Below, piece by piece: positions 36,270 to 64,000 of a DNA stretch of 64,000 bases. The first letter of the stretch is position 1. Each line of letters begins with the position of its first letter. The notes beneath the pieces are model-generated. The model saw only the letters and a list, made by a program, of their open reading frames with translations. It did not search any database and was not told the origin of the DNA. The translations under genes were made by a program, and so were the position numbers. Source of the DNA: an uncultured Lachnoclostridium sp. (GTDB lineage Bacteria; Bacillota; Clostridia; Lachnospirales; Lachnospiraceae); contig CALWLW010000017.1 of assembly GCA_944381625.1 (NCBI GenBank), positions 1-64,000 on the forward strand, in the 5' to 3' direction.

Positions 36270-36271
36270 CT

Positions 36272-36345
36272 GTCTCAGTGATCAGGTTTCAGATACTCGT
36301 GAGGACTGAGACCGGGGGAGGACCTGCGGGCCCTCCTTTTTTATT
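36272..36345 (+). ncRNA. Structured small RNA preceding the Abi_2/AbiF gene
   Basis: GTCTCAGT (36272-36279) and ACTGAGAC (36305-36312) form a perfect 8-bp stem enclosing 25 bases. A terminator hairpin follows, GGAGG-A-CC / GG-C-CCTCC with a TGCG loop, and then six T (36318-36342). The unit is promoter, about 70-nt RNA, terminator, then the abi gene 25 bases on. Abi_2/AbiF genes are known to be accompanied by an upstream structured RNA acting as antitoxin or guide-like partner. The position fits; I have not matched the published covariance model. Confidence 0.75.
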
Positions 36346-36370
36346 CAGAAAACAGGAAGAGGGGATACTA

Positions 36371-37614: not shown

Positions 37615-38850
37615 TCATCCATACATCCTTTTCAAAAGCTCGCTCCGATCCGGCCTGCCTTTGGGCATATAGCGTCGGATCACCTGCTGGGAAGTGGCGA
37701 ATCCCATCAGCTCCGCGATGTCGTCGGAGCTGGCCCCCGCCTGCACCGCGCGCATGGCGTAAGTATCCCGGAGCATCCGCACCGTCACGTTCCCAATCCC
37801 GCAGGAGATGGACCGGCGTCTGAGCGCCGCCCGCATCCGGTCCAGATTCACCGGTTCCTGATCCGCTCCGTACAGGACGAAATCCTTTTCCGCGGCCCGG
37901 TACCGCGCTTTGATCTGCTTCATGGTTTCCAGCAGGAAATCCGGAACCGGCACATCCCGCTTCTTTCTGCCCGTGAGAGGCTCCAGTCCGTACCGGGGTT
38001 CTTCGCCGCTTCCGACAGGCTGTCTCGCCACAAAATATTTCAGCATCAGCCGCCTGCTGGCAAAATCCACGTCCTGCCAGCGCAGGGCCGCCGCTTCGCT
38101 CAGAGTAATCCCCGCGTAAAGCACCAGCTGGAAGCCCAGGCCAAGAGGATACCCATGCTCGTCCTCATAGGAGGCCATGGCAGGCTCCAGCCTGCGGATA
38201 TCCGTTTCGCTCAGCCACTCCTGCTCCTCCCAGAGATTCTTGGGCCGGATCATCCAGGCCGTCTCCACACAGGGATTCTGCCCGATCAGGCCGTATTTCT
38301 GCGCGTCCCTCAGGCACCCGCTGAGCACGGACAGAGTATTGCGCAGCGTCCCCTCCGTCATATGGCCGTTCATGGTTCTGCGCACCTGCTCCTTCTCCAG
38401 CCTCCCGACCCAGTCCTGTACCTCCTTCTGCGTCAGTTCCCGGATCTTGCTGTTTCCAAGATAGGGAAGGATATGCCGCTCCATGGTCTCCGCATACATA
38501 CGGATCGTGGTGTCTTTGACCACGTTGGGCAGTACGTCCCTCAGCCACACATAGACCCACGCTTCCAGCGTGTCGATCTCCTCCGTCATCTCTTCCCGGA
38601 AGGCTTCCCGCTTTCTTTCCAGGGAAGCGTTCTGCCTGCTCCCCCAGAAATCTGCCTTTTTGCGCACCCGGTCACAGCCGCAGCTTGTGGCATTGCCCCG
38701 CTTCAGGCTCCGGACGGCGACGCTTTTTATCCTGCCGCAGTCGCAGCGGCAGATCACCTTTGGCAGCGTCGTCCTGTTCTCCTTGTCTTCTTCCAGCACT
38801 GTCAGTTTTCCAAAACGCTGTCCCACAATACTCTCCTGCCTCACTGACAT
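37615..38850 (-). CDS. Tyrosine-recombinase-fold protein with substituted catalytic residues and an N-terminal CDCG/SCGC module
   Basis: ATG 38850 with GAGAGGAG upstream gives 411 residues. Residues 9-60 form a small Cys module seen in phage DNA-binding proteins (VGQRFGKLTVLE, CRCDCG, SLKRGNATSCGCD). Residues 95-185 look like a SAM-like core-binding domain, and 210-400 like the catalytic fold. The first catalytic Arg position is Thr 249 (AGITLSEAAALRW for the usual GLRxxE), the HxxR His is Arg 358, and the GH is GF (384). Lys, the second Arg (361) and Tyr 394 remain. It is the last gene of the F1-like/surface-protein run. It may be a DNA-binding regulator rather than a working integrase; this is inference. 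Confidence 0.75.
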   Translation of the reverse strand: MSVRQESIVGQRFGKLTVLEEDKENRTTLPKVICRCDCGRIKSVAVRSLKRGNATSCGCDRVRKKADFWGSRQNASLERKREAFREEMTEEIDTLEAWVYVWLRDVLPNVVKDTTIRMYAETMERHILPYLGNSKIRELTQKEVQDWVGRLEKEQVRRTMNGHMTEGTLRNTLSVLSGCLRDAQKYGLIGQNPCVETAWMIRPKNLWEEQEWLSETDIRRLEPAMASYEDEHGYPLGLGFQLVLYAGITLSEAAALRWQDVDFASRRLMLKYFVARQPVGSGEEPRYGLEPLTGRKKRDVPVPDFLLETMKQIKARYRAAEKDFVLYGADQEPVNLDRMRAALRRRSISCGIGNVTVRMLRDTYAMRAVQAGASSDDIAELMGFATSQQVIRRYMPKGRPDRSELLKRMYG

Positions 38851-38869
38851 GGGTTTACTCCTCTCTTCC

Positions 38870-40681
38870 TCATCTGCTATCTGTCTTTTTCCGGTTGCCC
38901 ACATACAGAACTGTCATCAAGCATGCGCTGCCCAGCACTGCGGCCAGCGCTACGGCCAGGCCGCCCATCTGATCCTGAAGCGAGCCTGCGGCTGATACCG
39001 TCACAGTCTCCACATTCGTCTGGGTTACCACGCCGCCCTGGCCCTCCTGGCTCCGGCGCTCCTGACCGCCTGCCGACAGGTATTCCGCCGTACGGTAGAC
39101 CTGATAAGTCCTGGTAACCGGATCATAGACCGTCAGAAGCGCCGTGGGAGCCGCCTGTGTGGAAGCTGTCCCGCCGCCCGCCGATCCTGCGGACATGTCT
39201 CCATCCGAAGCCGCCAAAATTCCAGCGTCAGAAACATCGATGTCTCCACCGGCCATCTCGGCGGACACGCCTTCCGCCGCGGCAGTCTCCGCCGTGCCGG
39301 CGCTTTCTCCCGACTCTGCTCCAGCCATCGTCTCACCCGCAGAGTCTCCAGCGGCCAATTCCTCCGACAGTTCTCCGCCGACCAGTTCACCCGCGGGATT
39401 CCAAATCCCCGGTTCCTCCGCCGGAGTCCCGGCGGCAGTTTCGCCCGGCTCCTCCGCTGTGCCGTTCCCGTCTGCAGCGGCAGTCAGCGCCGTTCCGTCA
39501 AGCCCGAGGCCGGGATCTGCAGCCTGGCCTTCCCCGTCAGCCTCTTCTGTGAGCGCGCCGGCGCCTTCCAGAGTCCCTGACGGTTCTTCTGCCGGCAGTC
39601 CAGCCGCTCCGTCCTCCCCGGTTTCCGGGATTTCTTTTGACGGCTGTGACGGCTCTCCGTTTTCTGCTTCCTCCGTCCTGTCCTGGACGTCTGTAGATTC
39701 CGGTGTGCCTGCAGGCCGCGGGCCGTCCTCCGGCGCCGCTTCTTCCCCGGCCTCCGCCCGGAGACCGTCCGTTTCTGTCAGGCGGCCGTCCGCGATCACC
39801 AGGACCGTTTCCTTATCCGATCCCGATGCCGTTCCGTTGTCCGGGACAAATTCCGTTCCGGAAAGGCTTCCTGTCCCGGCCTCCAGGTTTCCTCCGTCTT
39901 CCGTCAGGAAGGTTTCACCCCCGGTATTCATCCCGTCCTGTACCGCCTGGCCGCCCGGCGGGAGAAATCCCACGGCATTTTCGTTGCCAGCCTGGTTCCA
40001 GGCTTCCTCCACCTGCACATAATTTCCATTCATGCCGCCGGTCAGGCCGTCCCAGGTATCGGTGAGCCATCCTTCCACGTACTCGCCGAACTCCAGCTCC
40101 GTCTTCTCCGATTCATCCCGGAACAAAAGCTTTCCCGTCACATAGTTGAACGCGGCCACCATCCGGTCGCTGTACCGTACCATCAGCACCGTGTCGCTGG
40201 TATCCAGCGTGCTGCTGATCTCCACGATATTACTGTTGGGCAGTTCATCGGGCCACTGAATGTCTGTATAATAATCCTCTATGGAGCGATCCTGCTCCAG
40301 CACCGACAGGTACTGGGTCGTCCCTGAGGATCCGGAGACCGAATCCACAACCACCTGATCCGGCCTTCCGTTGTAAAAATCAAATTCGGACGATACCAGA
40401 AGCATCGTGCCTCTCTTGTACAGCAGGCGGCTGTCTTCCAGCGCCGACGAGATCCCGCCGGCGTCGGTCATGCGGGTAAAACCGCCGAACACCTGGATCT
40501 GGTAGTCCCCACTGTCGTAGGTCTGCACCGGCTGGGCAGCCGGAAGCATCCGAAAGACGCCCCCTGTCGCTTCTCCGGACGCCGGATCCTGGAGTCCTGC
40601 CGCCGCGGCAGGGCTTACGCCTGCGCAGACGGCCGCGGCCGCCGCCATGGCTCCCGCCGCGTATCTTTTCCATCGCCGCAT
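38870..40681 (-). CDS. Type I surface protein with low-complexity stalk, F1-like cluster
   Basis: The 603-residue protein has a cleavable signal peptide (about residues 1-28, MRRWKRYAAGAMAAAAAVCAG...SPAAAAG). A folded domain of about 200 residues follows (YDSGDYQIQVFGGFTRMTDAGG; SRLLYKRGTMLLVSSEFDFYNG; DTVLMVRYSDRMVAAFNYVTGKLLF). Next come about 300 residues of Gly/Glu/Ala/Thr-rich stalk, then a C-terminal membrane helix (LAVALAAVLGSACLMTVLYVG) and a basic tail (NRKKTDSR). It is inserted the opposite way to its neighbours. It follows the giant protein gene by 16 bases. No known family; a role in the same surface assembly is inferred. Confidence 0.75.
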   Translation of the reverse strand: MRRWKRYAAGAMAAAAAVCAGVSPAAAAGLQDPASGEATGGVFRMLPAAQPVQTYDSGDYQIQVFGGFTRMTDAGGISSALEDSRLLYKRGTMLLVSSEFDFYNGRPDQVVVDSVSGSSGTTQYLSVLEQDRSIEDYYTDIQWPDELPNSNIVEISSTLDTSDTVLMVRYSDRMVAAFNYVTGKLLFRDESEKTELEFGEYVEGWLTDTWDGLTGGMNGNYVQVEEAWNQAGNENAVGFLPPGGQAVQDGMNTGGETFLTEDGGNLEAGTGSLSGTEFVPDNGTASGSDKETVLVIADGRLTETDGLRAEAGEEAAPEDGPRPAGTPESTDVQDRTEEAENGEPSQPSKEIPETGEDGAAGLPAEEPSGTLEGAGALTEEADGEGQAADPGLGLDGTALTAAADGNGTAEEPGETAAGTPAEEPGIWNPAGELVGGELSEELAAGDSAGETMAGAESGESAGTAETAAAEGVSAEMAGGDIDVSDAGILAASDGDMSAGSAGGGTASTQAAPTALLTVYDPVTRTYQVYRTAEYLSAGGQERRSQEGQGGVVTQTNVETVTVSAAGSLQDQMGGLAVALAAVLGSACLMTVLYVGNRKKTDSR

Positions 40682-40697
40682 ATCTGCTCACCTCCTT

Positions 40698-43600
40698 CTA
40701 TGGCAGATCCACTGCCGTTCCGTCCTCGCTGAGCGCCTGCCCATCATACAGATGGACAAATGCTCCCTCTTTCACCAGTTCTGTCTCTCCATCTGAAGTC
40801 ACCCGGTAGACGCCGTCGCCCTTCAGATAATAATAGCCGTCCGCCCAGGTCATGACCGTACTGCGAAGCTGGTCCGCCCGGTATGGATACGTCTTCTGAT
40901 CCGCATAGTCCGCGGAATACAGCACCACTGCGAAATCCGTCTGGAAATCATAGGATATGGTGCATACCTTTCCTGCTCCCGCCGCGGATTCCAGCGTGGT
41001 ATCTTCCATCAGCGTATTGCCGTAGGCGTCCACGATCTTGAAGCCGATCATGTCGCTGTCAATATGCGTGAAATCCAGGTTCAGCGTATTGATTCCGGAC
41101 GCATAGGCGATATTGTCCGCCGCCTCCAGGCTGAACAGAGAAGTCCCGGCAGTCTCTTCTATGGGAATTCCATCTCCGCCGTACACTGTCTCTTCGTAAG
41201 CGCCGTTCACAAGGGCTCCCGTGGTGTTCCAGTCCTCGTCCGTGATCAGGTTCACTTCTCCCGCTGTCTGGTAGGGGATCCGGATATATTTTGCCGAGGA
41301 TACATTAGCCATCAGATACGGATAATACCCGGCCTCCAGCCCTGAGGTATCCAGATAACCAGACGGGAATCCCGGGCCTCCGGTTTCCTGATCCTCCGCT
41401 TCCGTGCTTCCAAGCCCGCGGGCCGTCGCATAGTAAGTCTCGCTTTTCAGTGCATCGGATCCAATGACCGTCAATCCTTCTTTTCTTCCCACTGCTCCCT
41501 CCGTCCGATCCGGCAGTTTCAGCGGATTCGACGTGCCACTGACCAGCGTGCTTAAGATGCAGTCATACAGGGAATCCGTATTCCCGCTGAACGAGGAATT
41601 TTCCCCGGCGTAGTTGGCGTACCAACTAGAGCGTGCGCCGTTCGCGTTGGCAGTACTCAGACCTTTTGGCGCGATGGTGTTGCTGTGGAAGTTCCGGTTG
41701 CTCATATACTGGGTCCATCCCACGTCTTCGGAGATATCTTCTCCGGTCTCCGGATCATATACCCGGTCGCCGCTGCTGAACAGGCCCACCAGCCCGGCCA
41801 CATAGTTGATGCCGTGGATATTTTTATTCACTACCATGTTCCCGTACATCTGGGAGACATGGAAGCTGACGCTGCCTCCGGCGCTGGTACTGTTGCCGTA
41901 CCCCACCACCTCTCCGGCGATGCCGCCGATATTGTTGGCCAATCCCACCGACGCGCCCGAGATATTGTTGTAGGTCACGCAGCCCTCCAGTCTTCCGGCG
42001 ATGCCGCCTCCGGCGGTCTGGCTTACTTTCACGGACACACTGTCGTCGGTCTCGTTATAGTACACTCTGGAACAGTTCAGCCGTCCGGCCACGCCGCCGG
42101 CGTAATTGGCCGCCTGGACCTCCGTCCGGGACACGGTGTTGGAATATACGTCGCCCTGCCCATAACTGGAGGTCAGCTGGTACAGCCGTCCCACTACGCC
42201 GCCGGCATTGTCCTCCGTCGCTGCCACCCTGCTGGGCGTATCCTCCGCAGAGGCCGTGACCGCGCAGCCGCGCACCGAAGCATAGCCGCCGCCCATGATG
42301 CCGCCCGCATTGTTGGCCGCGCTGACGACCACGTCTGCCGCCTTGCAGAAGATCGCGCCGCCCGCGCTGTATCCCACCACGCCGCCGGCATTGCTGCCGC
42401 TGGGCGCTGAGACTTCCACGTCATAGGCCTGGGAATATCTCACAATCGCGTTGCCGAAGACGCCTCCCGCCGATCCCGACGACGTCCGGGCTTCCACCTC
42501 CGCCCCGGTGACCCGGGCGTTGCTGAACGTCGCCCAGGTGGCGCCGCCCAGGATTCCGCCCACCTGGCCGAATCCGCTTACCTTCACATTCATGGCGTCG
42601 TAGACCGGTTCCGCAAGGAGACCGCCGTTTTCCCCGGCGCGCATATAGCCCACCAGGCCGCCGGTTGCGGTCTTTCCTGTAACCTGCAGATTCTTTCCGT
42701 ACAGTTCCCGGCCGCTGCCCGACACATAGCCTGCGATGCCGCCGTAATAATTGCCATTCACTGTGGTATCCGTGCCGCCCATGGTGATGCTGTAGCCATA
42801 ACTGCCGCCGGACGCCTCCGAACCGAAGGCGTATACCTTCGAGATCTGCCTTGCATAGCCCGCCAGGCCGCCCACGTTCGAATAGTAGTAGGCGTTGTTG
42901 GTCCTTCCCTGTATGTTAATATCGTGCAGGCGCACATTCTCGATCTCACCGCTCACATAACCGATGCATCCCAGGTAGTTGTAGGTCTCCGAACCCGTGC
43001 GGTCGCCGGTGGTGATGGAGATATCCGAGAAGTCCGCATACTCCAGCGTCCCGGTCAGCTGGCCGATGATTCCGAAATAAGACGCATTATAAGTCTCGCT
43101 CAATTTTATGCCGCTAAAGTGAATCTCTCCCACCCGGCCGGACACTTCCGAGATCCAGGGCTGTCCGCCTGTGTTCATCTCCACATTTTTAATGGCAGTA
43201 AACTCCGACTTATCCGCCCAGCCTTCCGTTCTCAGTTCATAGTTCTCCAGATTATTCTTTGCGGTTCCTTCCAGACGGTTGAGTTTCAGCGAAGTTCCTG
43301 TGCCGGTTTTGCCGGCAAAATCCAGATCCTGTTCCAGCCTGAAGTTCTCAAAGGTGCTTCCGTGGCCGCCTGTTGCCAGCAGACTGGTCCAGTCATCCGT
43401 CGTAGACAGATGCCAGTACAGTGGTACGGCTGCCAGAGAGCCGTCCTCTGCCGGCGCCGCGTCCGGCGCATGGAAGATCAGCTTCTGCGTCACCTTCGCC
43501 CCCGCCGTGTCTTCATAGCGCAGCAGGTAGCTGTCCCAGCGGTTCACCGCTTTTGCATTCCGGTAAACGGCTTCCACACAGTCTATCGTATTTCCGTCAT

Positions 43601-46600
43601 TCGCCGTCATCTTGGACGGGTACAGTACCACATCCGCAGTCCCGTTATAACTTTCATACGCTTCCGCGCTGTTCAGGCAGTCTATCGTAGGATCAGCACT
43701 TACCAGTTCCAGGCCTTCCGCGCTCACCTGATTCTTCAGGTACTGGTTGAAGTAGTCTTCTGAAGCGGTTCCTCCGCCCATCTGCACGGTGATCTCCAGA
43801 TCATAGGTTCCCCGCTCTGCTACGGCATCCTTCAGTTCCGCGGTCGCGTCCTTCAGCGCGAAGTCCGGCATGGGCAGTTCATAATAGACCGCCGCCTGAT
43901 CCGGCAGAAGTTCGCTTCCGTCCGCCGTATAGAGAATGGGGTAGACATAGGCTTCCTTCACATCAGGAATCTCCTCCCCGTACTCCTCCCGGGATGTGCC
44001 GTACAGGTACCAGGACTCTCCAAGCGCCGCCTGGTTGGTCCAGAAATAATACTCCTTCATGGTATCCGCGCTGCTGAGCACCTTCACATCCATCAGCTCC
44101 TCGCTGGGCGCGCTGTTGATCAGCTGGCCGCTGTAGGCATAGCTCTGCGGGAAGTCCTGAACAGAACCCTCCCACAGCCCCATCAGCCGTCTCTCCACCG
44201 TTCCCGAAGAGGTGTACAGTTCTCCGCTAACCACCACACTGCTGTGGACATTATAGCTGGCATTTCCCGTAGCCAGCACATAGCCCAGGATGGAACCCAC
44301 ATGGTTGCTTCCATAGATGTTCACCGCCGTCCAGCAGTTTCCTACGGAGCCGTTGGCCCGCCCCGCGATCCCGCCGCAGTAGCTGAACCGGGTGTTAATA
44401 TCACCCTGCACATAACAGTTTCTGATGGTGGGAAGGGCAGTATTGCTGGCCATGTACGCATAGCCGATCAGTCCGCCCGTACCGCTGACGCTGACACCCT
44501 CAGATGTATTCATATCCAGTTCCCGCACGAAGCAGTTCCGCATGGAAAAGCTGGTTCCGCTGGCGTTGCTGCCCACCATGCCTCCCGCATACAGATTCTG
44601 CGCTGCGGACGAGCTTGTCAGCTTCACATTCACCGCCGTACAGTCCTCGATCGTGGCGTTCTGGGTGTAGGCCGCCAGGCTGCCCGCGTACTGGTACGCG
44701 TTCTGGATCTCTATATTCTCCAGATGGATGCCCTTCAGCACCACGTTGGCCGCCGTCTGGCGGATCAGGCCCAGATAGCTGGCATTGTTGGTGCTTCCCA
44801 GAGTCAGATTCCGCACATACAGGTCGTGCAGCTGGGCGCCCGACGCGATCCCGTTGAAGATATAAGCCCTCGGCTGGATCCCTTCGTAGTCCAGACAGTA
44901 GCCGCCGCCGTCGAACTCGCCCCGCAGATCCGTATCGGCAAATTTGTTCAGCGATACGGTCAGGTTTTCCATAGTTTCAAAACGAATATCTTCCACCAGG
45001 CGGTAATTGATCACCTGGGTGGCGCTCACCGGCGCGCCGCTCCAGCTCTGCCAGGAAAGCGGATAATAGAACCTCACGTTCACAAACCGGCTGTCCAGCG
45101 TCACCACCCGGTTCATGCCTGCCAGTCCATAGGTGTAAGAGGTCAGCTGGTAGCTGTCCCCATAGGAGACGGGGTTGGTATTTTCCCAGGTTCCCGGCGT
45201 CAGAAGGGCCGTCACCGTGGAGAATTCCTCCCGGTCCGCCGCCAGCTGTACCGTCGTCAGTCCGTTCACCACCAGGCCGGACAGATCGTAGCCGCCGGCA
45301 TTGGAGAAGATAAACTGTACCAGGGCGAACTGCTGGCGTACACGGAAGCTTCCGTCCGCCTGGGCCTCCAGATACGTTTTCCATCCCTCTTCCCCCAGGC
45401 TGGCCGTCAGCGCCGATTCTTTCAGCGCAGCCGCTTCCTCCGCGGAAAGTACGTCTCCTTCATAATAGACCGCATCCTCCGAAGCGCCCGGCAGATAGAC
45501 GTCTTTCTTCACCACGGAGGAGGACAGGTAGCTGGGATACGCGCCCATACCGCTGTTCCTCAGGGAGATGCTGGTCTGTATGCCGTCCATGCACTCCGGC
45601 ATGTCCACGATGGGATAATAGCCCGCCGCCAGCTGTTCCTCCACCACAAAGCCGCCGCCTCTGTTCACGCTTCCGTGGTAGAAAGCCGCCGACTGCAGGG
45701 TGGCCGGAGAACTGACAAACTGAGTGTATACGTCGTTCTTCAGATACGCGCTGTTGGAATAATAGTAGCAATTGTCCTCATAGCTCTTCCCCTGGACGGC
45801 TGTGCCCGGCCAGTTCCGGTAAGTATTCACCGGCGCGCTCACCAGGGAGGCGGATCCTGCCGCGTCCCTCTCCCACGCCTGGTAGTACATCTCCCCGTTG
45901 GTAAAACAGTTGCGGATCATGCCCGTATTGCTTCCCACGATCAGCCCCCATCCCGACAGGGAACCGATCTGCTTCGCATTGGAGTTCTGCTCCACGCCCA
46001 TGGAGAGCATGGCGTATACATTTTCGATCAGGCCGCCGCTCTGGTTGCTTCCGCAGACACCTCCGGTGGATGCAATGCCAATATCCGTGGTGCCGCCGTA
46101 CACGCCGGTACTCACCCTCAGGATACTGCTGCTGTAGACGATGCCGTCCCGGATGATTCCCCGGTTAGTGCCGCACACGCCGCCCATGGAGCCTCCCAGG
46201 ATATTGGAGTCTCCGGTGCCCGTGGTGAAATACACCGCAAACCGCTCGATGGTCCCCAGGTTCCATCTGCACAGGCCGCCGCCGTCCGTATGCCGGTAGT
46301 TGCCCTGGCCCAGATTGTACCGAAGCACCACGTTGCGGATCGTTCCATAATTAATCTGTAAAAAGCCATTGTATATCAGATTGGTCCGGTTGGTCCTTCC
46401 GTCCAGGGTATAGTTGATCTCCAGGTTCTCAATCACGCCGCTGCTTCCCAGGGAGTTGAACAGCCATCCGGAATTGAAGCTGGCAGTATAATCCAGAGAA
46501 TGCCCGTCCCCGTCCAGGGTTCCATAGAACCGGTACTGCTGGATCATGTTGCGGATCGTAGTATCCGTCTCCAGATCCTCCAGCACCAGGAACGACGCGG

Positions 46601-51650: not shown

Positions 51651-51672
51651 CCTGCAGTTATCCTTCTATCCG

Positions 51673-52776: not shown

Positions 52777-53359
52777 AGGTCTCCTCCAGCTCTTTTAATG
52801 CCCGCTTCTTCCGGTTCCATCTCTCCTTCTTCCGTCTGGCCCCCCGTTCCAGGGAGTCTTTCCCCAGGAGCATCTGGAAACTGTGCAGAAAGTCGTACAC
52901 CGCATACTCCAGGATGAAGATCTGGAGCATCCAGTACACCGCCATCAGCCAGGGATCGAAAGAAGCCTGCCCCATAAATCCCCGCAGAAGGGACGAAGCC
53001 AGCAGGGTCAGGATCAGGAACGCCGTGTAGAGCAGATCCGTCAGAAAACTGAGCGCGTGGGGCAGCGCCGCCAGTTTGACCAGGCAGAGCGCCCCCGCCG
53101 TCAGGATATGGACGGTCTGCAGCTCCGTCCGGCATACCAGACAGCTCACCGCAAAGGCCAGCTGCAGCACATCCGCCGCCAGATACGCGGATTCCTTCCA
53201 GGTCTGGCGGAAGAACAGCGCCTGTATCCCGTAATGGGCCGCGCCGCGTTTGGGCCGCACCGCCATGGCCAGGAACAGCACCATCAGTACGGCCGCCATG
53301 ATCCCGGCCGTGAGGATAAATTCCTTCAGCGCAAGCACCTGATAGGTCAGAAAACTCAT
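52769..53359 (-). CDS. Five-helix membrane protein, F1-like cluster
   Basis: The 196-residue protein has about five hydrophobic segments (ILTAGIMAAVLMVLFLAMAV, AADVLQLAFAVSCLVCRT, VHILTAGALCLVKLAALPHAL, LTDLLYTAFLILTLLASSLL, MAVYWMLQIFILEYAVYDFL) and a basic, helical cytoplasmic tail (RGARRKKERWNRKKRALKELEE). It is the only multi-span protein of the cluster besides the c-like subunit. It might take the place of subunit a, but I see no conserved a-subunit helix with its essential Arg. No family recognised. Confidence 0.7.
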   Translation of the reverse strand: MSFLTYQVLALKEFILTAGIMAAVLMVLFLAMAVRPKRGAAHYGIQALFFRQTWKESAYLAADVLQLAFAVSCLVCRTELQTVHILTAGALCLVKLAALPHALSFLTDLLYTAFLILTLLASSLLRGFMGQASFDPWLMAVYWMLQIFILEYAVYDFLHSFQMLLGKDSLERGARRKKERWNRKKRALKELEETYG

Positions 53360-53641
53360 CTAGATCTCCTCCCTCTTCTCCTTGAGCATCAGACGGAACT
53401 GATTGTCCTGATGCATGTAAAAGCCGTAGATCCCTTCCAGGGTGAAGACCTCGTCCTCCGACTGGATCGTCACGTCCCCGTCGATCTCTCCCAGCACGGG
53501 CATATAATCCTCCATGATCAGGAGATTGTATTTCCGGCTCTTGATCCGGATCAGGCGCACATGCTGGATCTCCTTTACGCCGTTTACGATGCTGTACACC
53601 CGCGCCGTCACGTTTTTAGGCTGGTATTGCCGTCCTGCCAT
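53360..53641 (-). CDS. Epsilon-like small subunit of the F1-like ATPase
   Basis: The 93-residue beta-rich protein (YNLLIMEDYMPVLGEIDGDV, EDEVFTLEGIYGFYMHQDNQ) lines up weakly with the N-terminal beta-sandwich of AtpC, which has the sequence order ILPGHxPL, xxxLKPG, GGFLEV. The C-terminal helical hairpin of epsilon is absent. It lies nine bases after the beta-like gene, in the atpC position. The identification rests on order plus weak similarity. Confidence 0.6.
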   Translation of the reverse strand: MAGRQYQPKNVTARVYSIVNGVKEIQHVRLIRIKSRKYNLLIMEDYMPVLGEIDGDVTIQSEDEVFTLEGIYGFYMHQDNQFRLMLKEKREEI

Positions 53642-53650
53642 CTTCCACCT

Positions 53651-55801
<2,151 letters not shown>

Positions 55802-55805
<4 letters not shown>

Positions 55806-57130
55806 GGCTGCTCCTCTTGGTACAGGTGGCGGAACCGTCCGATGATCTCGTCATGGCTTAAGGGGCTGTATTTATACTGGCAGAGCGCGGACATGATCTC
55901 CTCGCCCCTGCGGATCTTTTCCTGCAGTTCCTTCCCCATCTCGTCCATGTTGGTCAGCTGGTAGACCTCCCTGGTCTCCAGGTAGGACAAAAGTTCCCGG
56001 CGCACTCTGGCGCCCATCTTCTTCACCGGCTCCGGCTGCACCGCGCCTCCCAGACGGGATACGGACAGGCCGTAGTTGATGGCCGGCTTCTGGTTCTGGT
56101 CAAAGGATTTTTTGCTCAGTACGATCTGTCCGTCGGTGATGGAGATGATGTTGGTGGAGATGTAGTCCGTGATATCCCCTCCCCTGGTCTCCACGATGGG
56201 CAGGACCGTGATGCTGCCGCCGCATTTATGCTGGCAGCCCTTCTCCAGCATGCGGCTGTGGGTATAGAAGATGTCCGGCGGATACGCGTCCCTGCCCGGC
56301 GTCTTCCCCACCAGCAGGCTGATCTCCCGGTAGTTGTCCGCGTGGCGGGACAGGTCGTCCAGCACCACCAGCACATCCTTCCCCTGCATCATGTATTTTT
56401 CCGCGATGGTCAGTCCCACGTACGGGGTCAGGTACAGAACCGGCGGCTGGTCGTCGTTGAACGCGGCCAGCATGATGGTATAATCCAGCGCCCCCCTGCG
56501 GGACAGGTCGGCATAGATCTCTTTCATGCTTTTCTTGGTCTTGCCGATGCTCACATAGATGCACAGCACGTCCTTGCCCCTCTGGTTCACGATGGCGTCC
56601 AGGGCGATCTGGCTCTTTCCTGTCTTCTTATCCCCGATGATCAGCTGACGCTGGCCTTTTCCGATGGGATAGATCAGGTCGATGCCGGCGATGCCCGTCT
56701 CCAGGGGACGGTTCACCGCGGTCCGGTCCATGATCGGCGTGGTCCGGTTCTCGATGGGGAGCTGCTCCAGGCAGTCGAACTGCAGCCCGTTCATCCGGTC
56801 CCGTCCGAAGATGTCGATCATATGCCCCACGGATTCCTCCGAATAGGACGCCTCAAAGATCTCTCCGGTGGCCACCACTTCCGAATCCGTGTAGATCCGG
56901 CCGCCTTCCCGCACCACCGCCACCATCACATGGTTGCGGTAGATATTGTTCACATAGCCCTCCGAATGTCCGTCAATGATCACCTTCTCGTAAAACATCA
57001 CGTTGGTCAGCCCGCTGACCTCCAGGATGTATCCCTGTACAGAAGACACATACCCCACTTCCTGCATCTGATCGGGAGAAAATCCCATCTCTGTCTTTTT
57101 CTGAATCATTTCTTTTATATGCTGTTCCAT
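55802..57130 (-). CDS. F1 alpha-like subunit
   Basis: ATG 57130 with GAGGGAGG upstream is preferred to the longer frame from 57199, which overlaps the previous gene. The 442-residue product has the P-loop GDKKTGKS (166-173), KDVLVVLDDLSRHADNYRE and the arginine-finger segment INYGLSVSRLGGAVQ (Arg 359) that completes the beta catalytic site. The C-terminal helical domain ends with LCQYKYSPLS. It is about 60 residues shorter than AtpA, mainly at the N-terminus, where AtpA contacts delta. The family is clear, but the branch is not the housekeeping one. Confidence 0.92.
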
Positions 57131-57146
57131 TGTTCCTCCCTCTGCC

Positions 57147-57899
57147 CTACAGGCTGTAGTCCAGCACGCCGGCGCCCACATGCAGCCGGATGCCTTCATG
57201 GATCTGCGGATTGTACTCTACCCGGAGCCCGTCTTCCTCCGGCCGGTTCTGCGCGTCAGGATCCCCGCTCTCCACCCGGACCACCGGATCATGCAGCTTC
57301 AGGTACTGGCGTGCCGCGTCCATCCGGCCGGAAAAATCCGGGTACAGTTCCACTGGAGCCGCCTGCTCCAGCGCCGCCTGCTCTTCCTCCGTCAGCAGTT
57401 CCGAAAGAGCCGTCTCCCGCTCCCCGTCCTGCATCAGAATCAGGCCGTACATGGTCTGGAAATCCAGTTTGTCCATCACGCCCTTCAGGCGCGTCCAGAC
57501 CTGGTCCGGCTCCGGCCGCCAGTCCAGAGCCTGCCGGATATAGCCGCTGTAGTCCAGCCTCATATGGTCCCGGATATACCGGTAGGTCTCCAGCGATTCC
57601 TCGCTGCGGTATCTGGGATGGGAGAATCCGGGTACCTGGGAGAGGCCTCGGGAGACAGGCCGCGCCGCCCCCGGCTCTCCTGAAGCCTTCTCCTTCCTCT
57701 CCGTCTCCTGCAGCTCTCTTCTGGCTTCCGCCAGGCGTTCCAACGCCCCTTCCACTTCCTCGCCCAGAGTCTCCAGTTCCACTGTAAAATGCCGCTGCAC
57801 CTGCCGGTTGGTGATCACTACGATCTGGCGGATGACGAACAGTAAGAACACGTTCAGCACGGCCATCACCAGCAGCACGGCTGCAAGAATGATCTGCAT
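57147..57899 (-). CDS. Stator-like subunit: b-type membrane anchor joined to a delta-like C-terminus
   Basis: The 250-residue protein has an N-terminal membrane helix (ILAAVLLVMAVLNVFLLFVIRQIV). A coiled coil rich in Glu and Leu follows (VELETLGEEVEGALERLAEARRELQETE), as in subunit b, then a soluble domain. The last residues EGIRLHVGAGVLDYSL resemble the GGIRIRVGDKVIDGS end of AtpH (delta). Its place between the c-like and alpha-like genes is that of atpF-atpH. I infer that one protein replaces both b and delta. Confidence 0.7.
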   Translation of the reverse strand: MQIILAAVLLVMAVLNVFLLFVIRQIVVITNRQVQRHFTVELETLGEEVEGALERLAEARRELQETERKEKASGEPGAARPVSRGLSQVPGFSHPRYRSEESLETYRYIRDHMRLDYSGYIRQALDWRPEPDQVWTRLKGVMDKLDFQTMYGLILMQDGERETALSELLTEEEQAALEQAAPVELYPDFSGRMDAARQYLKLHDPVVRVESGDPDAQNRPEEDGLRVEYNPQIHEGIRLHVGAGVLDYSL

Positions 57900-57924
57900 G
57901 GTCTTTCCTCCTTCCGGCCTCTTC

Positions 57925-58176
<252 letters not shown>

Positions 58177-58192
58177 TTATTCTCCTTTATAT

Positions 58193-59950
58193 TTATGGAT
58201 TTTGCTGTGACTCGTCCGGGCGGATGATCACTCCGCCCTCGTCTCCCTCTGCCGGTTCCTGCCAGATGCTCATGCCGTAATACGGGTTCCTCACCACCTG
58301 GGAGGACAGAATCTGCCAGTTGCCGTCGTAGAGGCCGGCTACCAGCACCACCACATAGTGCTTGCTCTCATCCACAACGCCCTCTTCCTCGTTGATCAGC
58401 GCCGTCGTTCCCACCTGGCAGGTGGTTCCGCTCTCGCTCTGCATAGCCCCGATGAATTCGCTCAGCGCCGTACCCTCGGTTCCAATGGAGGCCAGACGTC
58501 CCGATACGTCGCCCAGTTCCGATTCCTCCTGGGTGTAGACCAGCGCGTACACCTCTTCCGGAGTATCCGCCACCGGATCAATCTTGATATCCAGGGACAG
58601 GTTGTACCAGGTGATCTCCTGGATCTTCAGGTAAGTGTCCATGGAAGACGTGGTAAAGGTGGTATAGTCTTTCTGGGTAAAATCCCCGTTCTCGTTGTAA
58701 CAGCCCAGGATCACGGAATACTGCCGGTTGGGCTTCAGTCCCGTGAACAGCGCCGAATCATCCGACGGGGTGATGGACATCTTGGTCAGGGTCAGGTTGT
58801 CGTTCTCTGCCTCCTGCCGCACCGTCTCCGCGTCCGATACCACATTCCCGGACGCGTCCGAGAACGTCTCATACAGCCACAGTTCGCCCACGGCATAATA
58901 GTTGAAAGGATCGTACATGGATACGTCCAGGGTGGCGGAGGTGGATGTGGTCGCCGCGCTTTCTATATGGAAGGAAGCCAGGGACTGCATCAGTTCTTCC
59001 GGCACGCCGGCTCCGGTACCTCCGGCTCCTCCGTTTCCGCCGGCCCCGCCGCTTCCGCCGCTTCCGCCGATGCCTCCGACGCCTCCGGTTCCACCGATAC
59101 CTCCGGCTCCTCCGGCTCCGCCTGTTCCCCCGGTTCCGCCCGTTCCGCCTGTTCCTCCGGCTCCTCCGACGCCTCCGGTTCCGCCTGTTCCTCCGGCTCC
59201 TCCGACGCCTCCGGCTCCTCCGGCCCCGCCGGTTCCACCGGCTCCGCCGTTGCCGCCGTTGCCGCCCCGGATCACATAGCTGTAGGTCTCGCCGCCCTCA
59301 GAGATGAAATCCCTGGTGCTGCCAAGCTCGATGCTGTTGTCCCCCATGCGGAGCACGTCGTCCTCCAGGGACCACACCATGCCGTCCGCATGGATGACTT
59401 CGTCATTCAGAAGGCGGATGCTCACCTCCCGGTTCAGGGCGCGGGCGTTGCCCGCGCTGTCTATGATCAGATACAGATACCCGGTGTCTGTGCTGAGGAC
59501 GCCGCTCTCGGTGGTGATACTCCTGCCCACCACCACGTAGCGGTTGGTATCCAGCCGGTACACCGCCGTATCCGTCAGGTCCTCCACCCGGCTGTGCTCC
59601 TCCAGCGTCACTACGCTTCCGTCCTCCTCATAGCAGTACATGCCGCCGAAGAGATCCAGCGCGTCTCCCGTGGAGTCGCAGGATACGGTGGAATTCCCCA
59701 GATCCCATACTCCGGAACCGGCGTAGAGCGTATAAGCGCCGCCGCCCCGGTTCTGCACCGCCCCGGCCGCTTCCAGCGTCACCGGGGTGTACACGTTGTC
59801 ATACACTGTTGCGCCCGCCCCCAGCTGCCAGGAGGCGCCGCGGGCGTTCATCACCAGAACCATGCAGGCCGCGATGCCGCCTGCCGTCAGCAGGCAGCAC
59901 ACCGCGAACAGCACAATCCCGCGTTTTGCTTTCTTGTCCAATTTCCGCAT
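58193..59950 (-). CDS. Single-span anchored protein with polyglycine GGX rod, F1-like cluster
   Basis: The 585-residue protein has a basic head (MRKLDKKAKR) and one membrane helix (GIVLFAVCCLLTAGGIAACMVLVM). A beta-rich outer domain (about 40-225; TAVYRLDTNRYVVVGRSITT, TDTGYLYLIIDSAGNARALN) precedes about 84 residues of strict GGX triplets. Two fibronectin-like modules then follow (SATLDVSMYDPFNYYAVGELWLY; GLKPNRQYSVILGCYNENGD). It is type II with the C-terminus outside. It lies directly upstream of the c-like gene, so it is part of the same unit. Confidence 0.8.
   Translation of the reverse strand: MRKLDKKAKRGIVLFAVCCLLTAGGIAACMVLVMNARGASWQLGAGATVYDNVYTPVTLEAAGAVQNRGGGAYTLYAGSGVWDLGNSTVSCDSTGDALDLFGGMYCYEEDGSVVTLEEHSRVEDLTDTAVYRLDTNRYVVVGRSITTESGVLSTDTGYLYLIIDSAGNARALNREVSIRLLNDEVIHADGMVWSLEDDVLRMGDNSIELGSTRDFISEGGETYSYVIRGGNGGNGGAGGTGGAGGAGGVGGAGGTGGTGGVGGAGGTGGTGGTGGTGGAGGAGGIGGTGGVGGIGGSGGSGGAGGNGGAGGTGAGVPEELMQSLASFHIESAATTSTSATLDVSMYDPFNYYAVGELWLYETFSDASGNVVSDAETVRQEAENDNLTLTKMSITPSDDSALFTGLKPNRQYSVILGCYNENGDFTQKDYTTFTTSSMDTYLKIQEITWYNLSLDIKIDPVADTPEEVYALVYTQEESELGDVSGRLASIGTEGTALSEFIGAMQSESGTTCQVGTTALINEEEGVVDESKHYVVVLVAGLYDGNWQILSSQVVRNPYYGMSIWQEPAEGDEGGVIIRPDESQQNP
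59014..59266 (-). repeat. GGX triplet repeat region within the anchored protein gene
   Basis: About 28 successive Gly-Gly-X codon triplets, with X being Ala, Thr, Val, Ile, Ser or Asn. Only the third residue varies. Such repeats form polyglycine II bundles in some phage adhesins. The 9-bp units are a likely site of length variation. Confidence 0.85.
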
Positions 59951-59965
59951 GCTGTATTCCTCCTA

Positions 59966-62900
59966 TCAGTTGGCCACGAAGCCCTGGGGGACTGTGTAGG
60001 TTATTGTTCCGTCCGCGTTGGAGAAGGTGAACGACGCGCTGCAGTTTCCTTTCAGCTTGCTCGTCTCCGAGGCAGGGATCGTAAACCTGCAGGTATTCCC
60101 ACTCCACTGCGCGTGGTCAACCGACACCGTAACCACTCCGCCGGTTTCTGTGCAGACCACTGTCAATGTCGCCGCTCCCGTCAGCTGATCGATACCGCTT
60201 CCGTTCAGCACGTTCAGCGTCAGGGTTCCTCCGGCGCTGTAGGTCACCACTATATCCAGGAACACGATACCGCTTTCCTCCGGCATGGTCAGGTAACGGT
60301 CAAAGCCGGGGGTGCTGGTGGTCAGACGGATATTTCCATAAGCGTCCACTTCTCTGTCTCCATGGCTCTGTTCACACTCACAGCTGCTGCCTATTGTATG
60401 CCTGATTCCGTTGAGCGTTCCCCATACTTCGTTGTAATAGATATGTTCATAATTGGGGTTGTTCGCCCACTTCAGGCTGTGGGTTACATTGGTCCGTATC
60501 AGAGTGTATGTTCCCTGATTATACAGCGGGGCGCCATTCAGCGTAAACTTCTCTGTCACATCAGCTCCGGATCCGGTTTTCTCCAGGATCTTCACATAGA
60601 TCTGGCCGCTGTACAGCTTGCCATCCGTTCCCCACACTCCTGTGTTGAAATCCTCATCCACCGAGCGCAGGCTGATGGTCATATCCAGTCCCGCCGTATT
60701 CTTTTCATATGTGGCGCCCACCGTCTGCGTGGGATTGCTGCCCGCCGGGATCGTAAAGGTGATGCTGGTCTCTCCGGCGACAAGGCCTTTGGCTGTGATC
60801 ACATCCTGATCATTCGTATTCGTATCCCATTTCTCGGTCGTCTTTTCAAATTTATCAGAGTCCATATTCACAAGTTCCTGATCCGTATAGCAGATCCTGG
60901 CCTCCAGCTTATAGGTCTGTCCCGCGATCAATGTACGTTCATCCAGCAGCTCCTTCACCCCGGTCAGGTTCAGCTTTTCATTTCCCGTAGGCGGCGTATA
61001 GATGCTGGTGGGATCTCCATTTTTTACATAGATCGTGATCGTCCGCTCTTCTGCTTCATCTCCAGTAACAGGATCATATGTCTTCACCGTCGCTGTCACC
61101 GGGATATACCCGTTGGCCGCCATGACCTGCGCATGATCCAGCACAACGTCCCCGGCGTTATCCAGCAGCCGGTATTCTATGTACTCGTCATAGATCGTTT
61201 TTGTATTATAAGTTGTCCCACCTGCTTCATAGATTACGGTGCGGGTTCCCAGATTCACTTCCTGAAACCTTTGATCCACATCGAAGACCACCGATACGGT
61301 CTTATCGTCATAGCTCTTTGCCGTATAGGATGCGGCCGGTACGGGGTTGCTGGTCTTGAATCTATTCCGGCTGTTGGTCATCAGACGGAACCAGCAGTTG
61401 TAGCCGATCTGTGAATAGTAACGGTTGGATACGGCGTTGTTCATATTGGTGTTGTCAATCACATAGTGCTTCAGACCTTCGAGTGCATCCGCTGTCAGAG
61501 TGCTGTAATCAATCTCCTGTGAACTGTCATCTCGTACCGGCAGCACATAGACCCTCAGGGAATAGTTCTTCGCCCCGCTGCCCGAATTATTTTTCTCCGG
61601 ATCCAGGTTCCTCAGGGTCCACCGGAAGACGTTATTCGTTTCCGTGTTCGAAACATCCACTTTCACTGCAGGCAGATCCAACAACACCTCATTTCCTGCT
61701 CCGCCGATAATCTCTGTATCCTCTCCGGCAGCTGCGCCGATCACTCCGGATCCGAAATGTTTCTTGTCCGTCAGAAGGTCTCCGTGTGTAGCTTTATCTA
61801 AACTCAGTTGGTAAATGTACTTTGAGTCCTCCTCCCAATAAGTTCCGCCGCTTGGTTTATACTCCGTATCCTCTCTCAGTTCCAGGAACAGGTACGGATA
61901 AAACTCATATTCATCGTCCGGATCATTTTTGTTCAGCTTCTTCAGGCTGGCTTCCGGCATGGTCAGGGATACCGTGACCGTATCCATGGAGGACGTCACC
62001 GTCAGGTTTTCCGTAAACTGCACGGTAGATTCCGGCGTGGAGAAAGTAAACAGGGTTCCAGGCTCATAAATATCGCTGCCAATCTCCATCGGATCCGCAT
62101 TTACCTCCAGCTCTCCCGGCGACTGCTTCGACGCCTGCAGTCCGGCGCCCGACATGCCCAGCGCGCCCAGTACCACCGGCACGCTGTTCTCCCGGTCCGT
62201 CCATCCGCCAACAGCGGCATTATAATAATTCGTCTCGCTCAGATATCCGCTTCCCGTCACCACCGCGTTCCTCAGATATACTCTGGATTCTAATGTGGTG
62301 GTAGACAGTTTGTCACCGAGGATATCGTATGGGTGCAGATACCAGGCTCCGTCTACGACGTCAAATTTCTCCTTGTCCGGCTCAGCGTTATACTGCCATA
62401 CAGTGCTTCCATAAGGCAGGCTTCGGTTTCCGCTCAGCTTCCAGCTGTTCCCATTATAGGCCGCACCTGCGGTGCCGGTGTACCAGGTGCCCGATTTCTG
62501 CTGGCGGACCAGATAGGAGTTCCTGTCTCCAGCCGGATCCGCGTTCCAGATCCAGGAAATGTCCGGATATGTTTCAACTTCCGTGCTCCTCATATATGCA
62601 TCCTGTCTGCTTCCGTACAGGCCGGTGTCATAGATCACCTTCACCTGAACGGCCGCCGGCCGGTTGGCGGAATAATTTCCCAGATCCGCGATGTTGAACG
62701 AAGCCACGATGTTGCTCTGCGCGGCGGGGTTATAACTCAGCCGCTTTGTACCTTTCTCTTCCCATTGAGGGGTAACATCATTTCCCATGTTCAGCCATGC
62801 GGTAACCTCCAGCGCCACGATACGGTCCTCCAGGCCATTGGTCGACGCTTCGTAGAACTGCAGGTTGCCGCCCACCAGCTGGGCTTCCAGCACCAGGCCG

Positions 62901-64000
62901 GCCGGGGTCCCATCGTCCGCATGGATCTTCAGCGTATCCCGCACCTTCTCATACCGCGCTGTGGCGGCGGCCATATAGCGGAGGCTGGACATACTGTTCA
63001 GCTCATAACCTGCGCCTTTCTCATATTCGTCCGTACCCGCGGCGGAGGAGTTGGTCACATAGGCGCTGTCGTTCAGCACCCGGCCCAGGTGAATGCTGTA
63101 GACCGTATAATCCCCGATCCATCCATCCGACGGGGTCAGGGTAAAGGTTCCTTCCCAGGAGACGCCGGCCGTAACCGAATTTGCGCTGTCTACTATGATA
63201 TGGGCCCCTGGGGCAGAGGACTGCGAATACCCATAGATATCGGAGATCTCATCTTCCGACAATGCCTTTATGTCGCTTCCCGGCATACTGATCCCAGCCG
63301 CTGCATAGGTCCTCAGCGATACGTCCGACAGCAGCGGATACAGCGCATATGTATATTGTTTCATGCCGTCCGACGTTGTTCCCAGGATATAGCCTTTGCT
63401 CCAGTCAATTGGATCGGCCTCAAACTTCCCTAATTTTTCATACAGTTCCTGCCAGAGCATCCTGTCCCCGTCGGCGGGATCTACGATCCCCAGCGCCTGA
63501 TCCGGGTCATAGGCAGTGAAAGACCACACCTGATCCCCGTCCAGCGTCGTATGATCCAGGGTCATCTGCACCTCCGGCGCCTGGCGATCCATCTGCTGCG
63601 GCTTGCTCCGGATCATGAGCTTGTTGCTCTTGGCGTACAGGACATCGTCATAGGGAAACTGGTACAGCGGATTGCCGTCCGCATCCTGTTCGCAGCGGTC
63701 CCACTCGGAGAAGCTGAACAGGTACGTCTGTCCCCTTTTCAGATTGTTGGTATAGTACACATAACCGCCGGTGGCGCTGTTTTTCTCCGCCCTGTCACCA
63801 TTCGTGGCATCATTGGGATCATCCACATAGATCACGTCCAGGAACGGCGCTTCGATGGAATCCCATTCTTTCTCATCGATCTCAATGGTCACAGCAGTCA
63901 CTTTGTCCGCCCAGTATCTTTCAGTACTTTCAGTACTATTTTGTTTATGGGCCACCGCCGCCTGAGCGATGTCCTGATATATTGCGGTATCATGTTCCTG
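59966..64000 (-). CDS. Large extracellular modular protein, 5' end beyond window
   Basis: The frame is open to the window edge and has no stop upstream of the apparent GTG at 63955, so this is the C-terminal portion (at least 1344 codons) of a longer protein. It is built from beta-sandwich-like modules (WSFTAYDPDQALGIVDPADG, TFTLTPSDGWIGDYTVYSIHLG, QTYLFSFSEWDRC, GQTYKLEARICYTDQEL). It ends without a membrane helix or sorting motif (NADGTITYTVPQGFVAN). It is rich in Asp, Tyr and Thr and poor in Cys. It precedes the GGX protein by 15 bases. The N-terminal anchor, if any, lies outside the window. Confidence 0.75.
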   Translation of the reverse strand, partial: QEHDTAIYQDIAQAAVAHKQNSTESTERYWADKVTAVTIEIDEKEWDSIEAPFLDVIYVDDPNDATNGDRAEKNSATGGYVYYTNNLKRGQTYLFSFSEWDRCEQDADGNPLYQFPYDDVLYAKSNKLMIRSKPQQMDRQAPEVQMTLDHTTLDGDQVWSFTAYDPDQALGIVDPADGDRMLWQELYEKLGKFEADPIDWSKGYILGTTSDGMKQYTYALYPLLSDVSLRTYAAAGISMPGSDIKALSEDEISDIYGYSQSSAPGAHIIVDSANSVTAGVSWEGTFTLTPSDGWIGDYTVYSIHLGRVLNDSAYVTNSSAAGTDEYEKGAGYELNSMSSLRYMAAATARYEKVRDTLKIHADDGTPAGLVLEAQLVGGNLQFYEASTNGLEDRIVALEVTAWLNMGNDVTPQWEEKGTKRLSYNPAAQSNIVASFNIADLGNYSANRPAAVQVKVIYDTGLYGSRQDAYMRSTEVETYPDISWIWNADPAGDRNSYLVRQQKSGTWYTGTAGAAYNGNSWKLSGNRSLPYGSTVWQYNAEPDKEKFDVVDGAWYLHPYDILGDKLSTTTLESRVYLRNAVVTGSGYLSETNYYNAAVGGWTDRENSVPVVLGALGMSGAGLQASKQSPGELEVNADPMEIGSDIYEPGTLFTFSTPESTVQFTENLTVTSSMDTVTVSLTMPEASLKKLNKNDPDDEYEFYPYLFLELREDTEYKPSGGTYWEEDSKYIYQLSLDKATHGDLLTDKKHFGSGVIGAAAGEDTEIIGGAGNEVLLDLPAVKVDVSNTETNNVFRWTLRNLDPEKNNSGSGAKNYSLRVYVLPVRDDSSQEIDYSTLTADALEGLKHYVIDNTNMNNAVSNRYYSQIGYNCWFRLMTNSRNRFKTSNPVPAASYTAKSYDDKTVSVVFDVDQRFQEVNLGTRTVIYEAGGTTYNTKTIYDEYIEYRLLDNAGDVVLDHAQVMAANGYIPVTATVKTYDPVTGDEAEERTITIYVKNGDPTSIYTPPTGNEKLNLTGVKELLDERTLIAGQTYKLEARICYTDQELVNMDSDKFEKTTEKWDTNTNDQDVITAKGLVAGETSITFTIPAGSNPTQTVGATYEKNTAGLDMTISLRSVDEDFNTGVWGTDGKLYSGQIYVKILEKTGSGADVTEKFTLNGAPLYNQGTYTLIRTNVTHSLKWANNPNYEHIYYNEVWGTLNGIRHTIGSSCECEQSHGDREVDAYGNIRLTTSTPGFDRYLTMPEESGIVFLDIVVTYSAGGTLTLNVLNGSGIDQLTGAATLTVVCTETGGVVTVSVDHAQWSGNTCRFTIPASETSKLKGNCSASFTFSNADGTITYTVPQGFVAN

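Follow-up and report, generated by a model that had tools for sequence, protein, structure and literature searches.

The window analysed here is the first 64,000 nucleotides of contig CALWLW010000017.1 from an uncultured Lachnoclostridium sp. (assembly GCA_944381625.1). Its minus strand carries, at 38870-64000, a set of genes for an F-type ATPase together with genes for large surface proteins (Table 1). A first-pass annotation of the window had described six ATPase genes in the order of atp operons, in one tight run and with surface-protein neighbours. This layout is confirmed, the spacers across the whole run measuring 25 bases at most or giving way to short overlaps. The set recurs in 32 loci and is thus not a product of chance. 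A Pfam search of its proteins found ATP-synt_ab twice, in alpha and in beta.

Three details required correction. The ribosome-binding site and the homologues place the start of alpha at 57130 and not at the first ATG of the open reading frame. The anchored, five-helix and giant proteins listed as neighbours stand, but the left end, 37615-38904, is a tyrosine recombinase gene (Phage_integrase, 9.8e-16) outside the ATPase set, and the 603-residue protein is a split-off end of the giant. It matches the C-terminal parts of the giants in a second copy in the same genome (2e-8) and in genomes G019 (7e-17), G290 (3e-9) and G134 (6e-5) by BLASTP, which indicates that a single giant has been split into two genes in the window.

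Table 1. The ATPase gene set and its surface-protein genes in the window
Feature	Position	Strand	Remarks
Large N-anchored surface protein "big", 3' part	59966..64000	-	about 2,490 residues once completed on contig C17; juxtamembrane domain; Collagen 8.4e-7, over cut-off
GGX protein, N-anchored, 585 residues	58193..59950	-	juxtamembrane domain akin to that of "big", then Gly-Gly-X run
c-like subunit, 82 residues	57925..58173	-	ATP-synt_C 5.6e-9; RNPE loop kept; Thr in place of ion-binding acid
b-like protein, probable b-delta fusion	57147..57899	-	one membrane span, long helix, delta/OSCP-like C-terminal part; no Pfam match over cut-off
alpha, 442 residues	55802..57130	-	Pfam 9.6e-74; P-loop and Arg finger kept; C-terminal domain shortened
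gamma, 257 residues	55032..55805	-	Pfam ATP-synt 1.2e-24
beta, 455 residues	53651..55018	-	Pfam 2.6e-66; catalytic residues kept
epsilon-like protein, 93 residues	53360..53641	-	matches epsilon N-terminal domain; length leaves no room for C-terminal helices; no Pfam match over cut-off
Five-helix membrane protein, 196 residues	52769..53359	-	no Pfam match over cut-off
Anchored protein, 367 residues	51673..52776	-	outer domain akin to first outer domain of the giant; no Pfam match over cut-off
Giant N-anchored surface protein, 3650 residues	40698..51650	-	fn3 and GLUG matches, both below cut-offs
603-residue protein	38870..40681	-	N-terminal signal-like segment; C-terminal membrane span; corresponds to C-terminal end of giant in other copies

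Intact catalytic residues and a c-like subunit without the ion-site acid

The residues required for ATP hydrolysis (P-loop, catalytic Glu, the Arg of beta and the Arg finger of alpha), which the first-pass annotation had read in the window, are intact in 19/19 alpha and 19/19 beta proteins. Locus L066, whose alpha and beta frames are each broken into two, was omitted from this count and from the trees. Profiles of the canonical subunits were built from fetched loci and compared by hhalign, in which gamma matches canonical gamma at 99. Both large subunits missed the NCBIfam cut-offs of the known families, including AtpA (alpha, 443.6 of 554 and 404.3 of 484.45 bits), narrowly AtpD (beta, 458.9 of 462.85 bits) and the N-ATPase models TIGR03324 and TIGR03305 (369.3 of 750.5 and 417 of 752). 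The same was observed for the Mycoplasma Type 3 models MSC_0619 and MSC_0618 (alpha 299.7 of 520, beta 397.2 of 570) and the Type 2 models MMOB1660 and MMOB1670 (alpha 381.8 of 600, beta 384 of 850). With only 455 residues, beta does not qualify as a Type 2 protein, for which an N-terminal extension of beta is among the marks. In two other loci alpha has a very long C-terminal tail (L056:10001-12490, a frame of 829 residues whose tail is acidic and repetitive; L188:3660-7910, a frame of 1416 residues).

The ratio of nonsynonymous to synonymous substitution rates (dN/dS) is 0.007-0.076 for alpha, beta, gamma, the c-like and the epsilon-like protein, 0.07-0.16 for the b-like and five-helix proteins and 0.10-0.20 for the surface proteins. 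Values were obtained in 20 of 25 comparisons, the other five being saturated, and many have a synonymous rate (dS) above 1. These ratios indicate that the gene set is under purifying selection.

The c-like protein matches the canonical c profile at 96.8 and retains the RNPE loop; in ATP synthase, the polar loop of c docks gamma and epsilon. In the alignment, the ion-site column holds Glu or Asp in 22/25 canonical c subunits, but in 0/18 c-like proteins, where Ala, Thr, Ser or Val is found instead. Including 3 and 12 more proteins, the acid is absent from 33/33 (two loci counted twice); its loss had been noted before in the window. The sole charged residue of helix 2 is a His near the helix start, present in 11/18. 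The c-like gene has a dN/dS of 0.02-0.03 in two pairs (dS about 1.1), and the loss of the acid is therefore not decay.

Subunit a (PF00119) has no match within the gene set, in agreement with the first-pass annotation. Genome-wide, PF00119 is present in 10/19 carriers and was not found in the other 9/19, nor in 22/22 further carrier genomes, among which 9 reach a completeness of 90% or more and a contamination of 5% or less. Two genomes of the second list (G908 and G1297) are also on the first (as G302 and G301), which leaves 29/39 distinct carriers without a match. In 9/18 carriers searched with PF00006, alpha and beta of the set are the sole members, apart from one Rho-like protein in 3 of the 9, and where they are the only rotary ATPase found, subunit a was likewise not found. 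It is difficult to see a usual ATP synthase in a motor that is kept by organisms with neither a further rotary ATPase nor a canonical a. A reading as ATP synthase that uses a distant subunit a was rejected on the same counts.

For the b-like protein, the AlphaFold2 model (mean predicted local distance difference test score, pLDDT, 81.7; predicted template modelling score, pTM, 0.52) has a first helix of 72 residues that includes the membrane span, a helical bundle and four strands. The 37 best Foldseek matches of this model are all ATP synthase entries, including the b-delta protein of M. smegmatis. Judging by the chain names, we take the matched chains to be mostly delta/OSCP. The model thus suggests that the protein is probably a b-delta fusion able to supply the peripheral stalk. 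A sequence search for relatives among solved structures gave a best E value of 0.008, to a complex I chain, which we judged to be chance.

The five-helix protein was likewise modelled by AlphaFold2 (mean pLDDT 84.3, pTM 0.71). Among the 50 Foldseek matches listed, out of 134, eight are ATP synthase a or engineered-Fo chains; their query template modelling scores (TM-scores) are 0.34-0.43, and four of them are the highest listed. No column of the five-helix alignment holds Arg in 60% of rows, and a Lys/Arg column (16/19 rows; Leu in the window) opens the fourth span. In three loci the protein is fused to an outer domain, giving frames of 400-405 residues (L058:13813-15024, L060:13793-15010 and G134 C8:38775-39977), and this domain matches the profile of the small anchored protein. 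The fusions suggest, as a lead only, that the five-helix protein sits next to anchored proteins. It may perhaps stand in for subunit a.

Surface proteins with paired domains and glycine runs

In all four anchored families, a single N-terminal span leads into a domain of some 200 residues. These juxtamembrane domains are related between "big" and GGX (hhalign 84.8, E 6.6e-6) and between the small anchored protein and the giant (93.4, E 2.5e-7); 40 column shuffles gave at most 0.98 and reversed profiles at most 2.8. Directly behind the domain, the window's "big" has 78 residues of collagen-like Gly-X-Y repeats. At the same place, GGX has a Gly-Gly-X run that is 84 residues long (87 when read as Gly-X-Y). 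Among the 14 loci in which both genes are readable, such runs occur in both proteins together in 7/14 and in neither in 7/14, and in the run-less loci a low-complexity linker is found in both. The paired run lengths, collagen-like first, are 78/87, 51/60, 69/75, 93/105, 117/120 and 99/99. They correlate at r = 0.984 over these 6 loci (G134 and L058 counted once), a value reached in 2 of 720 permutations. We take the length match as a sign that the collagen-like and Gly-Gly-X strands may lie side by side. In the searched surface proteins we found no enzymatic or immunoglobulin-related domains, just collagen, fn3-like, GLUG-like and weak unrelated matches. The second copy in the same genome has an extra collagen-like protein of 849 residues (Collagen 3.1e-9, L010:2483-5032) ahead of the "big" gene.

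Recurrence, genome context and phylogeny

Besides the pair of the window, its genome (G000; 3.43 Mb in 30 contigs, 94.7% complete) holds three further pairs of alpha/beta type. These belong to a second copy of the set on contig C2, to a canonical operon on C1 and to two adjacent genes on C12. In the canonical operon, a is followed by c (with Glu), b, a joint delta-alpha frame, gamma, beta and epsilon. The frame sizes of the C12 pair (597 and 457 residues) led us to read it as V/A type, and a single protein on C5 was read as Rho. The cell thus possesses additional ATP synthesis genes. The set is not the sole ATP synthase of its genome; the opposite result could have undone the first-pass proposal of a repurposed ATPase. 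The fused delta-alpha frame has 675 residues (L012:7097-9124); alpha frames of at least 590 residues are common in the same family. The C2 copy has the gene order of the window and is followed by a PD-(D/E)XK transposase gene (L011:14759-15955). Identities between the two copies are 75% for c, 69% for beta, 65% for alpha, 42% each for gamma and epsilon, 30% for the b-like and 26% for the five-helix protein; conservation is highest in the parts nearest to catalysis and the ring.

Searches with alpha identified carriers in 4/299 genomes of the same family, including its own (E at most 3e-203; the next match, 1e-118, and those above it were called canonical by score, not individually), in 3/391 genomes of the class, including its own, in 11/195 of a family of small Clostridia, in 12/193 of the family of G311, a Bacilli metagenome-assembled genome (MAG), and in 1/189 of the family of Bifidobacterium colobi. 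A scan of the named collection covered the best 80 loci, and further relatives may exist. It yielded 15 loci at 56-70% identity, from MAGs of Lachnospiraceae, Clostridia, Firmicutes and Bacilli, from one MAG each of Erysipelotrichaceae and Coriobacteriales, and from B. colobi LC6. The next loci have at most 43%, and the first five of these (L067-L071) have ordinary atp neighbours. In plasmid and phage collections all alpha matches were below 60% identity (38.9-41.3% in 12 of 513 records, the annotated ones being ATP synthase alpha), and we dismissed a plasmid- or phage-borne system. In the literature on F1-like or rotary ATPases in Lachnospiraceae, Clostridia, Bifidobacterium and Firmicutes, titles and abstract starts gave no description of the set, with most subscription journals and preprints outside the scope of this search.

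Most of the 32 loci have the gene order of the window. The order c, b, alpha, beta, epsilon, five-helix, gamma is found in Bacilli (4 loci of the named collection and 3 of the further 12). In L052 and L057 the c-like gene is displaced elsewhere on the same contig, and L185 is cut within alpha. The neighbours, whose recurrence the first-pass annotation proposed to test, recur with the ATPase genes. Genes of one or more of the four anchored families adjoin the set in 29/32 loci (5/5, 12/15 and 12/12), or in 27/30 distinct ones, as two of the further 12 loci are L054 and L055 again.

Several mobile or defence-related genes were observed nearby. A second tyrosine recombinase gene lies at C17:67733-68572 (L014:7733-8572; Phage_integrase 4.8e-25), and the two recombinases flanking the cluster suggest that it is an island. 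Just downstream of the cluster, at 36248-37306 on the plus strand, an Abi-like protein is encoded (Abi_2, 4.6e-47). A resolvase gene adjoins the set in L052, and type I-C CRISPR-Cas-like genes, as read from the sequence, precede it in G019 (L048:1-8412).

In both the beta tree (64 rows) and the alpha tree (60 rows), the set forms one clade at 100/100. Type 2 and Type 3 form separate clades of their own, each with a bootstrap of 100, and mycoplasma Type 1 groups with the canonical proteins. Canonical rows were 20 of the 61 parsed, plus L143, for beta and 19 of 64 for alpha; L067 and L085 for beta, and L085 for alpha, had been named as rows but were absent from the parsed sets. The alpha tree was built without L143 (partial), L149 (Type 2, no alpha), L151 (Type 2, short) and the two odd long rows of the beta tree, L074 and L111, and L056 alpha was trimmed to its first 450 residues. 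Those two long-branched beta proteins (L111 and L074, from Gammaproteobacteria and Omnitrophota MAGs) stand among the canonical rows and are perhaps N-ATPases. In the alpha tree, a branch at 96/98 parts the canonical and Type 1 proteins from the set, Type 2 and Type 3, a topology that would be compatible with a shared origin of the non-canonical F1 lineages. There, Type 2 joins Type 3 and not the set (89/81), whereas in the beta tree the set and Type 3 are joined with support of 98/95 and a warning of long branches. Given this warning and the disagreement of the alpha tree, we did not take the join as kinship. The first-pass annotation had proposed an independent solution in Bacillota. The separate clade agrees with independence, but the confinement to Bacillota does not hold, as B. 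colobi and the Coriobacteriales MAG also carry the set. Their placement among Bacillota points to horizontal transfer.

A proposed mechanical ATPase and its relation to known systems

We consider it probable that the set encodes an F-type rotary ATPase uncoupled from ions that delivers the energy of ATP to surface proteins, with an action outside the membrane that we infer. ATP would be hydrolysed by alpha and beta with their intact active-site residues. The c-like proteins would form a ring turning with gamma, and the b-delta protein would hold alpha3beta3, perhaps aided by the five-helix protein standing in for a; hydrolysis would then yield torque without ion flow. The load, less certainly, would be the co-encoded single-span giant proteins, because the anchored proteins are the other constant members of the set. 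The outcome would likely be cyclic movement or resetting of an adhesin-like surface apparatus, broadly comparable to the gliding legs or the MIB-MIP antibody handling of mycoplasmas. In the Lachnospiraceae forms, the load proteins would bear a length-matched collagen-like/Gly-Gly-X stalk.

Several observations weigh against this proposal. For the b-like model, the best Foldseek E value was 0.0014, none reaching 0.001, with query TM-scores of 0.13-0.32, and by sequence hhalign gave 21.6 against b and 15.2 against delta. The assignment of the epsilon-like protein is moderate (54.8 against canonical epsilon; at most 0.5 for shuffled and 1.0 for reversed controls). The resemblance of the five-helix protein to subunit a is non-significant (best E 0.89), and as a sequence homologue of a it was rejected (hhalign 0.5-0.7, no relation). 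The remaining 4 of 6 pairings of juxtamembrane domains are unrelated (0.9-10.7). The length match of the glycine runs rests on 6 loci, and genome G+C may account for the joint presence of the runs, though not for the length match: it is 25-29% in 6/7 run-less loci, against 43-58% in loci with runs, the exception being B. colobi (59.6%, run-less). Finally, three Bacilli loci (L062, L063 and L064) show no surface gene. Their contigs end within or shortly before the c-like gene, with 229 and 856 bases upstream of it in L062 and L064 and a start inside it in L063; L064 has an unrelated partial open reading frame there, and no anchored gene was seen in the downstream flanks of the three (about 1.4, 6.9 and 0.6 kb).

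How the torque would reach the outside of walled bacteria is more speculative. A rigid stalk of collagen-like and Gly-Gly-X strands might carry rotation through the cell wall and twist or rotate the giant outer proteins, with the low-complexity linker replacing it in run-less forms. We regard this extension as possible but doubtful.

The ATPase could instead serve assembly or export, its hydrolysis pushing out, folding or assembling the giants in the manner of type III secretion and without repeated movement. Giant or large anchored proteins do accompany the ATPase in the 29/32 loci, and the export ATPases FliI and SctN are distant relatives of alpha and beta. However, the FliI and SctN models score 176-213 of 605-619 bits, far below their cut-offs, and a c-like ring and a peripheral stalk belong to torque-producing machines, not to export ATPases. 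The surface proteins are, moreover, anchored by N-terminal membrane spans, for which Sec export is expected. We consider such a function unlikely.

A clutch or scaffold without rotation, in which an F1-like head hydrolyses slowly and toggles a static assembly on a c-like ring that is a mere anchor, appears slightly less likely again. Loss of the acid would be tolerable if nothing rotates, and the turnover given for the Type 2 G1-ATPase in the cited passage is low (0.18 per s per beta; PMC11864180). On the other hand, gamma, the stalk-like protein and the c-like protein are all kept under constraint, and a static anchor would hardly require them.

We hold it very improbable that the complex has remained an ion pump or an ATP synthase, working through an unusual site and with the five-helix protein as subunit a. 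The structural matches of that protein to a and engineered-Fo chains and its Lys/Arg column would fit such a pump, but the site acid is missing throughout the c-like proteins, helix 2 bears no charged residue besides its His, Arg never reaches 60% in a five-helix column, and the window's own genome already has a canonical atp operon. Least credible, and rejected, is the idea that the set belongs to mycoplasma Type 2 or Type 3 and arrived by horizontal transfer. The concept of an F1-like motor beside surface proteins is shared, and the beta tree could be cited for it, but the three separate clades, the alpha tree, the missed family cut-offs and the lack of related accessory proteins described below oppose it.

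New here are the probable b-delta stator, the two related pairs of juxtamembrane domains and the length-matched collagen-like/Gly-Gly-X runs. With an acid-less ring, a stator and an adjoining load, the set makes it testable how an ATP synthase turns into a mechanical motor, and it is present in a named strain, B. colobi LC6. Should the outer proteins prove to be adhesins, there would be commensals that grip host or food via ATP-powered structures. If the stalk does rotate, this would be a rotary ATPase doing mechanical surface work outside mollicutes, and a plausible picture of a stage between ATP synthase and the mycoplasma motors.

With the F1Fo ATP synthase the set has in common its genes for alpha, beta, gamma, a c-type subunit and a probable stalk, arranged in broadly the same order, but it differs by the c-like protein without the acid, the absence of canonical a, the epsilon-like protein without C-terminal helices and the short C-terminus of alpha. 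The c-ring of V-ATPase holds the single-span accessory proteins Ac45 and prorenin receptor, a precedent for single-span outer proteins on a rotary ring; unlike the acid-less c-like ring, it moves protons. The Gly-X-Y run of "big" recalls the streptococcal Scl1 and Scl2 (NCBIfam NF038330 and NF038329; match far below cut-offs), which differ by an LPXTG anchor in place of the N-terminal membrane span and by unlike outer domains.

In the Type 2 G1-ATPase, the twin motor of Mycoplasma mobile gliding, an F1-like ATPase is likewise proposed to drive surface "legs" (PMC11864180; PDB 9io5). Its GliD is proposed, in the passages cited, to derive from a b-delta fusion (PMC11864180), but is described there without a span, alongside an N-terminal extension of beta and dimers, and has no sequence relation to the b-delta protein of the set (hhalign 0.12). 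The Type 3 F1-like X0 ATPase with MIB-MIP also places extra alpha, beta, gamma and epsilon-like genes beside large surface proteins, and the cited passages give it no canonical a (PMC3369863, PMC12994834). In M. mycoides subsp. capri, deletion or Walker-A mutants of this ATPase were reported to lose protection from antibody agglutination (PMC12994834). According to the same passages, Type 3 has no b/delta homologue, its other proteins are unlike a, b and c (PMC3369863, PMC12994834), and it includes a 12-transmembrane (12-TM) protein and a large one with spans near the C-terminus. The N-terminal helix is described as missing from its alpha (PMC12994834); alpha of the set appears, by sequence, to keep this helix. 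The gene content differs, as the seven-gene set of Type 3 (12-TM protein 1, protein 2, large protein 5) is not matched. Among the Type 2 and Type 3 proteins compared by hhalign, gamma of Type 3 alone matches the set (85.6); the 12-TM, GliD/protein 2 and epsilon-like proteins are unrelated to any set protein (at most 1.6; protein 5 was outside the comparison). The set is separate from these and conserved in Bacillota and Actinomycetota, and it retains more of the ATP synthase, with its c-like protein and probable b-delta stalk, though its ion site is lost.

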